Assembly: GCA_023954715.1 (NCBI GenBank)
Contig: JAGSHD010000015.1
Location: 59,772 to 123,771, forward strand
Source: Candidatus Cloacimonadota bacterium
GTDB taxonomy: Bacteria; Muiribacteriota; UBA6191
Direction: 5' to 3'
DNA length: 64,000 bases
Shown here piece after piece: positions 8,474 through 42,216 of the stretch. Below the pieces are notes generated by a model. The model did no database searches and was not told the DNA's origin. It was given only the letters and a program-made list of their open reading frames with translations. Every line of letters begins with the position of its first letter. Positions within the stretch are counted from its first letter, which is position 1. A program made the position numbers and the translations under genes.

Positions 8474-9739
8474 TTATGTCTTTCGTGGTTTTGGCTTTGC
8501 CGCTGGAAACAATATATTGTTTAAAATCAGTCGATATCCTGGTGAATTTTTATGTAATTTAAGATCTGTTGGAGGATCTGAAACCGCATGAGAAAAATCT
8601 TCTGGATCATGTCCACCATAAAAAGAAAAAGTGCCTTTTCCGAATCTACCGTGAATGTATTTGTAAACGTCTTTATCAATGGTTTTGCCTAGTTTAATCA
8701 CTGATGGCTTTAAGACTTTACCGCTAAATGATGTTGTTTGCCCTAAAAAACCTTTTACCACATGCCTATGGTTTTGATTTAACATGGCAGGAATCGGATC
8801 AAACTTTGCACTAAATTCAAATAATTCAAAGTCTTCGCGCTCAGGGTGAAATCTATTTTCATATAAAGAGACATCAATTGTTGAAAACTCATATACATTA
8901 GGATCTAAATCAAGTGTAAAATTTTCAAAGGCTAAAGTTTGACGAAAATCCAATCTTTTTTGGATGTTTTTTGAGATCGGTGTTCCATCTATTCTTGGAT
9001 CAACAATATCTAAACTTAACGATGCTAAACCAACATCAATGCTATCTGTTGCAGAGCACATAGCAAACATAAACCCACCTTTAGATACATACTCTTGTAC
9101 CATTTTAGCCACATCTCCAAACCAGGTTTGCACACTATTGTAACCAGCCTCTTTCGAAAGTTTTCTAAAAAGTTGGACTTTTTTTAAGTACCATGGAGCA
9201 TTTTTAAAAGAGCGATAGAACTTTCCGTACTGCCCACTAAAGTCTTCATGATGTAAATGCAACCAATCATAATCAAAGAGCTTACCAGCTAAAACTTCTT
9301 CATTCCATAGCTTGTCATAAGGTATTTTTGCATAGTTCATAACCAAGGTTACAGCATCGTCCCATGGGTCAGATGATTTTTGAGTGTAAACTGCAATTTT
9401 TGGAGCCTTCTCTAATTGAACCTTCCCCATGTTATTTTTTTCTATGATAGCGTCAATTTGTTGCTTTGTAGACTCATCAATAACTATTCCAGACACACCA
9501 TATAAAGTAGCCTGTAATAGGAGGTTTTCTGTGTAAGGCATTAAAAAGCTCCCACCCTTAAAGTTCAATAACCATTGTACTTTATGTGATTGCTCTAAAG
9601 CGAAATACGCCAGACCATACGCTCTTAGATGATCAGTTTGTGATTCGTCCATCTCTATCAAAAAATATTGATTTGTAAATGAGACCTGTATACTCAATAA
9701 CAAAAGTATTGGGTAAAGCACTCGTTTAAATAAGTTCAT
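8474..9739 (-). CDS. Conserved exported protein (resembles Bacteroidetes proteins often labelled asparagine synthetase B)
   Basis: N-term signal; 'MDESQTDHLRAYGLAYFALEQSHKVQWLLNFKGGSFLMPY' recalled as similar to that family; not verified. Confidence 0.45.
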   Translation of the reverse strand: MNLFKRVLYPILLLLSIQVSFTNQYFLIEMDESQTDHLRAYGLAYFALEQSHKVQWLLNFKGGSFLMPYTENLLLQATLYGVSGIVIDESTKQQIDAIIEKNNMGKVQLEKAPKIAVYTQKSSDPWDDAVTLVMNYAKIPYDKLWNEEVLAGKLFDYDWLHLHHEDFSGQYGKFYRSFKNAPWYLKKVQLFRKLSKEAGYNSVQTWFGDVAKMVQEYVSKGGFMFAMCSATDSIDVGLASLSLDIVDPRIDGTPISKNIQKRLDFRQTLAFENFTLDLDPNVYEFSTIDVSLYENRFHPEREDFELFEFSAKFDPIPAMLNQNHRHVVKGFLGQTTSFSGKVLKPSVIKLGKTIDKDVYKYIHGRFGKGTFSFYGGHDPEDFSHAVSDPPTDLKLHKNSPGYRLILNNILFPAAKPKPRKT

Positions 9740-14565: not shown

Positions 14566-14696
14566 GTAACTATTCAGCTATAATTTTTCAATTTGCTTAC
14601 AAAGCTTGAATACATCTAGGTACATCAATAAAGCATAAACTGCGAAAAACTTGTATGCTGCTATCCTTTTATCAAAGAGACCACCCGAATAATTAC
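14566..14696 (+). mobile_element. MITE-like element copy 1 (131 bp, internally deleted)
   Basis: Starts GTAACTATTCAGCT, ends CGAATAATTAC (rc GTAATTATTCG); flanks GAATTTTA / AAATTTTA (7/8 match, TSD-like). Confidence 0.75.
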
Positions 14697-14928
14697 AAAT
14701 TTTATATCAATAGCTAACTATAGGTTTCAACTAAAAGTACATTCATTAAATATGCTTCTTTACCTTTTTTTACTTATAAATTATTAATTGAATTGCATAT
14801 AAATCGATTATGATGATATACTTGTCTAATTAGTCTGCAAAATAGACTGCACTATGGGGGTGTTTGCTTTGATTTTACTAAACGAAATCACTGCTAAACA
14901 ATAATATAATCTAACTTTCAGGGGTTAT

Positions 14929-25761: not shown

Positions 25762-25830
25762 CTTAAACCTATACCCGACAAATTAGTCAGAATGCTTGAA
25801 TAAAACCAAGTGGTATATTCCTAAAAATAT

Positions 25831-26056
25831 GTAACTATTCAATTATAATTTTTCAATTTCCTAGTAAAGATTGATTACACCTAGCTTTTTGATCATTATA
25901 ATATTTTATATTTACAGCTTTTGAAGTGCAGTGAACTACTCGAAAAAAGCTTTAAAAACAAAAGAGATAGTGAGCTAAACCGCATTAATAAAGTAAAACC
26001 TACGATAAATTTGTATGTTCCTCGCCTTTTATCGAAGAGACCAGCTCAATACTTAC
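25831..26056 (+). mobile_element. MITE-like element copy 2 (226 bp) between fliF and fliH
   Basis: Starts GTAACTATTCAATTATAATTTTTC, ends CTCAATACTTAC (rc GTAAGTATTGAG); flanks AAAAATAT / AAAAATAA; internal similarity to copy 3. Confidence 0.85.
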
Positions 26057-26109
26057 AAAAATAACAAGTACTTACTATTATATCTTATCAGATTAAATAA
26101 AACTCAATT

Positions 26110-28932: not shown

Positions 28933-29376
28933 ACATAAAATGCACTTTTTTGCACTTTTTTGTTAGTCTTTGTACTTTTTTGTTTATTTTTGGAGGAAAT
29001 ATTTTTAATCAATTCTGAACTTTAAAAGTCCAAATCTCAATTTTTCAATCAAATTTTATGGCTTTTTAGTGTTGTATTTAATACATATAAAGCCTCAACT
29101 TAAATCAAATATACCTAGCCTGACTAAAAAAGTTATATTTAGATCCCTCCGCTATAGTCTGAATAAGCTCATAATAATTGTTGTAACATACAATCTACTG
29201 AACAAATAAAACCCCATGTTGATGGGCTTTGTATTTTTCATGATCCTGTTTGAAGGGGAAAGATTTTGAAAACTTAAGTCTTTGATTAATACAAATATAG
29301 AGTCTTTATATTTGGAGGGAATATATGATAGGGCTACTTAGTATATTGAAGTAGCTCATACTCCAAGTAAATAATT

Positions 29377-41989: not shown

Positions 41990-42216
41990 GTAACTATTCA
42001 GCTATAATTTTTCAATTTATTCACAAAGGTTGATTACAAATAGGTTTTTGATCATTGTTATATTTTGCATTTACAGCTTTTGAAGTGTAGTGAACTACTC
42101 GAAAAAAGCTTTAGATACAAAAGATGATTATGAGCTAAACCGCATCATTAAAGAAAAAAATGCGAAAAAATTGTATGCTCTTCGCCTTTTATCGAAGAGA
42201 TAACCTGAATAATTAC
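41990..42216 (+). mobile_element. MITE-like element copy 3 (227 bp) with perfect 8-bp TSD AGATATTT
   Basis: GTAACTATTCAG.../...CTGAATAATTAC TIRs; AGATATTT immediately on both sides. Confidence 0.9.

Follow-up and report, generated by a model that had tools for sequence, protein, structure and literature searches.

The flagellar cluster described here has no fliG between fliF and fliH, and a dispersed repeat occupies the place, which raises the question of whether the gene was lost or has moved and whether the repeat took part in its departure. The window, the whole stretch of 64,000 nucleotides that was analysed, carries on its minus strand the order flgB-flgC-fliE-fliF-[25762-26109]-fliH-fliI-fliJ-motE-like, and the 348-bp gap in this order contains no fliG and has insufficient room for one. 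The gap has a GC content of 27.6%, compared with 35.2% for the window. FliF scores 189.5 bits against TIGR00206, above the cut-off, and retains an alignable C-terminal tail. On all these points, namely the gene order, the coordinates, the gap without fliG and the C-terminal segment of FliF, an earlier note on this DNA described the locus correctly.

The gene is relocated and not lost, so of the two fates that the earlier note left side by side only the former stands. A search of the window genome for FliG domains, which that note had proposed, finds a FliG_C match on contig C31 (144458-144778, E=3.9e-45). The C31 FliG has 337 aa and matches FliG_N, FliG_M and FliG_C with 125.8, 118 and 157 bits, all above cut-off, and the NCBI equivalog model TIGR00207 with 418.5 bits (cut-off 226.7). 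Its alignment with the solved FliG of 1lkv spans 231 residues (E=8.8e-81), and the NMSKRA and DE...GPVR stretches, inspected for the charged residues of the torque face in the C-terminal domain, are retained in it. The protein is an intact, three-domain FliG, and its sequence suggests that it works as one. FliF, FliM, FliN, MotA, FlhA and nine flagellin matches are found in the same genome. Since an intact FliG is encoded elsewhere in the genome, no substitute for it is needed, and the idea that a MotE/MgtE-N-like or other protein must replace it falls.

The relocated gene lies in a block formed by dnaN, two HEAT genes, an lptD-like gene, fliG, infA and tilS, and it starts 13 bp downstream of the lptD-like gene. 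The latter encodes 656 aa with an LptD/OstA-like layout, from which the name lptD is our own reading, and its Pfam LptC-related match is exactly at the cut-off. A copy of the repeat found in the fliF-fliH gap is located 13 bp past the stop codon of fliG (L012 9014-9409), where it is interrupted by a member, of about 170 bp, of another dispersed repeat family. No copy is present in the 13-bp spacer between the lptD-like gene and fliG.

Table 1. Features of the fliF-fliH slot, of the repeat family that it contains and of related flagellar proteins. Positions without a contig or locus are those of the window.
Feature	Position	Strand	Remarks
fliF, 518 aa	26110..27666	-	Upstream side of old fliG slot; TIGR00206, Pfam YscJ_FliF and YscJ_FliF_C
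fliF-fliH gap without fliG	25762..26109		348 bp; orthologous spacers 25 bp (NORP72) and 11 bp (G002)
fliH, 273 aa	24940..25761	-	Downstream side of old fliG slot; Pfam PF02108, 52.6 bits
MITE in gap, 226 bp	25831..26056		About 40 genome copies, terminal inverted repeats, 8-bp target duplications
Left terminal inverted repeat, GTAACTATTCAA	25831..25842	+
Right terminal inverted repeat, CTCAATACTTAC as + strand	26045..26056	-
Left target duplication, AAAAATAT	25823..25830		7/8 match with right copy
Right target duplication, AAAAATAA	26057..26064		7/8 match with left copy
Second full-length MITE copy in window	41990..42216		Perfect 8-bp target duplication, 84% identity
MITE copy with internal deletion	14566..14699		blastn pieces 14566-14619 and 14623-14699
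MotA-like/FliG_C protein, window genome	C31:74131-75177 (L003 1486-2532)	-
MotA-like/FliG_C proteins, NORP72 (n=3)	L116 1572-2582; L117 1740-2870; L118 1657-2787
Extra FliG_C proteins of family f7, examples	G017:C66:7401-7712; G023:C1:7311-7625
Flagellin matches, window genome, examples	C3:25520-31973; C31:57221-65836

The timing of the move is given by the relatives. The family sample is made of four MAGs, which are the window genome (G000), NORP72 (G001, same genus), G002, which belongs to another genus, and G003. NORP72 has been grouped in one genus with a MAG that is assigned to the candidate phylum UBP17 (PMC9426571). The block of NORP72, dnaN-HEAT-HEAT-lptD-fliG-infA-tilS, has the order of the window genome, and the FliG proteins of the two genomes are 95.8% identical. 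In G002 and G003 fliG also directly follows the lptD-like gene, and the spacer between these two genes measures 12-20 bp in all four genomes. NORP72 and G002 have no fliG between fliF and fliH, which are separated by only 25 bp in the former and 11 bp in the latter; in G003 fliF was not found. Outside the family the gene remains near its usual neighbour, within about 2 kb of fliF and on the same strand in 27 of the 27 other phylum genomes that have both genes, according to our own count from the search tables. Six of these 27 genomes were read, and all six have fliF-fliG, with fliH next in each of the five where the contig reaches that far. The fliF-fliH slot is a common position of fliG and not a requirement for FliG identity; in the window genome fliG is not the gene between fliF and fliH.

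The 226-bp repeat of the slot is a genuine MITE because it has inverted-repeat ends, 8-bp duplications and about 40 essentially intergenic copies. When 23 copies are aligned together with the DNA that flanks them, the ends come out at exactly 25831 and 26056, which confirms the limits given by the earlier note. The ends are imperfect 12-bp inverted repeats (GTAAYTATTCAG); in the consensus, GTAACTATTCAG and CTGAATAATTAC, they are complementary at 11 of 12 positions, and the slot copy is less perfect. The 8-bp flanks of a copy match each other at 84% of positions versus 42% for flanks taken from different copies, and among lengths from 3 to 12 the match peaks only at 8. Perfect 8-bp target duplications are seen in half of the copies (10/20), while the slot copy has 7/8. 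The search of the window genome lists 50 matches, about 40 of which are substantial copies, and the copies are essentially intergenic in the 20 regions checked. Bacterial MITEs such as MITEAba12 (PMC6382973) are alike in being short, non-coding and intergenic, with terminal inverted repeats and target duplications.

In G001, G002 and G003 no MITE was found except for one weak 30-bp match in G001. There is no trace of it in the fliF-fliH spacer of NORP72 and none beside the fliG of that genome, which is separated from infA by 88 bp. As for its origin, the GTAA ends and 8-bp duplications recall IS66, and judged by its ends the MITE is perhaps IS66-derived. As a candidate source, however, IS66 did not hold, with no match to its transposase (PF03050) in the window genome, an absence that is not final in a genome 86% complete. 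Mobilisation of a MITE would require a transposase acting in trans; no partner element came to light. A transcriptional role for the MITE was likewise not retained, since its fold is unexceptional (z -1.33), its promoter-like matches do not exceed chance and a search for terminator-like sites in it gave none. The second dispersed family, with elements of about 170 bp, has 43 matches in the genome. One of them is the element that interrupts the MITE copy located after fliG (L012, about 9087-9252), and a short piece of another lies between fliO and flgB (window, about 29196-29244).

Very probably, then, fliG moved once, in the ancestor of the family, to the lptD-like gene, and the MITE of the slot arrived later, as an unrelated event restricted to the window lineage. 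A single move in the family ancestor is inferred as the simplest and most likely history, because the relocation is common to the family and the other genomes of the phylum keep fliG beside fliF. The insertion of the MITE into the slot most likely postdates the split of the window lineage from NORP72, at a time when the spacer was already without fliG, because the element is not found in the relatives and the spacer of NORP72 is clean. Points against this history, besides the replacement by a foreign fliG discussed below, are the notable coincidence that a MITE copy also stands 13 bp past the stop codon of fliG at its new place, and the representation of the family by four MAGs only, in one of which (G003) no fliF was detected.

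That coincidence speaks for a possibility raised by the earlier note, namely that fliG left by recombination involving the element. In such a scenario copies flanking fliG would have recombined, excised the gene, left one copy in the slot and carried fliG to another copy elsewhere, and copies do stand both in the old slot and just downstream of the gene. The relocation is however shared by NORP72, G002 and G003, where fliG is missing from the slot or follows the lptD-like gene and the MITE is not found. Relatives that lack fliG in the slot without any MITE are what the earlier note itself had named as refuting its proposal. The 7/8 duplications around the slot copy fit a fresh transposition and not recombination between two copies, and there is no copy between the lptD-like gene and fliG. 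The clean junctions of NORP72 rule out a MITE-mediated transfer of fliG, which would survive only if ancestral copies had later been removed precisely in every other lineage and is refuted otherwise; its likelihood is extremely small. Taken as a pair the two insertions look suggestive; the relatives show, however, that the move required neither. A misassembly that falsely connected fliF to fliH at the repeat and dropped fliG from this place could be suspected, since the assembly is a draft of 38 contigs and the junction is a dispersed repeat. Its probability is practically negligible, because NORP72 and G002, two other MAGs that have no repeat there, show the same order of genes on both sides of the gap; moreover, the sole full-length fliG sits in a block conserved with NORP72.

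The original fliG might also have been lost and the present gene gained beside the lptD-like gene by horizontal transfer. The position of fliG outside the flagellar cluster agrees with such a gain, as does the identity of FliG to proteins of other families (51-60%), which is higher than that of FliF (27-31%). These values nevertheless resemble those of FliI (53-57%), FliG being generally a slowly changing protein, and the family stays together in each of the three trees, built for FliG, FliI and FliF from in-phylum sequences, without misplacement. Gain by transfer is for these reasons judged very unlikely. Since the trees cover sequences of this phylum only, replacement by a foreign fliG retains a small probability.

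The favoured history, a move in the family ancestor followed by the MITE, would have proceeded as follows. The gene fliG would have left the fliF-fliH slot and settled directly downstream of the lptD-like outer-membrane gene, and the short residual spacer would later have received a MITE by transposition, while the same MITE family would have inserted independently just downstream of the relocated gene. FliG is probably translated from the transcript of the lptD-like gene, because 12-20 bp separate the two genes in each of the four genomes, which suggests co-transcription. Transcription from fliF through the MITE to fliH is plausible because the element has neither a terminator-like site nor an unusual fold, and the MITE may therefore have little effect on fliH and the later genes. 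It seems unlikely that the lptD-fliG pairing was itself selected, with the supply of FliG tied to envelope growth and not to the flagellar regulon; if it were, the torque-ring protein would be made from a transcript of outer-membrane biogenesis.

Other proteins with a FliG_C domain were encountered in these genomes. In the genus of the window genome, soluble proteins of 336-376 aa join a segment similar to the cytoplasmic loop of MotA to a FliG_C domain. The forms of NORP72 at L117 and L118 have between these parts a FliN/FliM N-terminal motif, LSQKEIDGLLQGNFGLDG, which is almost identical to the N-terminal sequence of the FliN/FliY-type protein of the window, LSQDEIDALLQGDFGLDD. The MotA cytoplasmic loop and FliG_C contact each other in the motor. 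These proteins could possibly act as a motor clutch, brake or decoy. They are the most curious by-product of this analysis and may outweigh the relocation of fliG in interest. The window genome also encodes, outside its flagellar clusters, a 249-aa protein (C9:12312-13061; L002 1270-2019, minus strand) in which FliG_C is followed by an apparent C-terminal transmembrane segment, and G003 has a FliG_C protein of 244 aa (L119 2953-3687). In family f7 a second FliG_C protein of about 150 aa directly follows fliG in many genomes. Most of the nine flagellin N-domain matches of the window genome belong to open frames about 900 aa long, and several are arranged in tandem.

Three genomes of a sister family of the same class, f2 (G004-G006; L066, L067, L068), have fliF-fliH-fliI-fliJ without fliG. 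No flagellin was found in the three; FlhA and one FliM/N-like protein are present in G004 and G006. A weak Pfam match of the FliF tail to FliG_C, which could hint at a FliF-FliG fusion, was obtained in one genome only (E=2.8e-5), and a profile comparison of the FliF tails with FliG was not significant. The system of G004-G006 may be an export apparatus other than a flagellum, or else a flagellum in reduced form.

Rhizobia also have fliG apart from fliF, beside flhB, fliN and fliM. Changes in flagellar gene order are already known, as in Arcobacter, in which these genes are "shuffled across the genome" (PMC9321776), core genes leaving their usual neighbours while the gene set is kept. Unlike in Arcobacter, here only fliG has left, the remaining operon order is intact and the gene has a fixed place after the lptD-like gene throughout the family. 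Searches of the literature found no publication that deals with where fliG lies in this lineage. The case is an ordinary relocation together with an ordinary MITE, and with it a claim that might have been made, of a flagellum lacking FliG, falls away. It also illustrates cleanly how two events at the same spot can look linked and yet be separated in time, and the lptD-fliG block is usable as a marker for this little-studied lineage.
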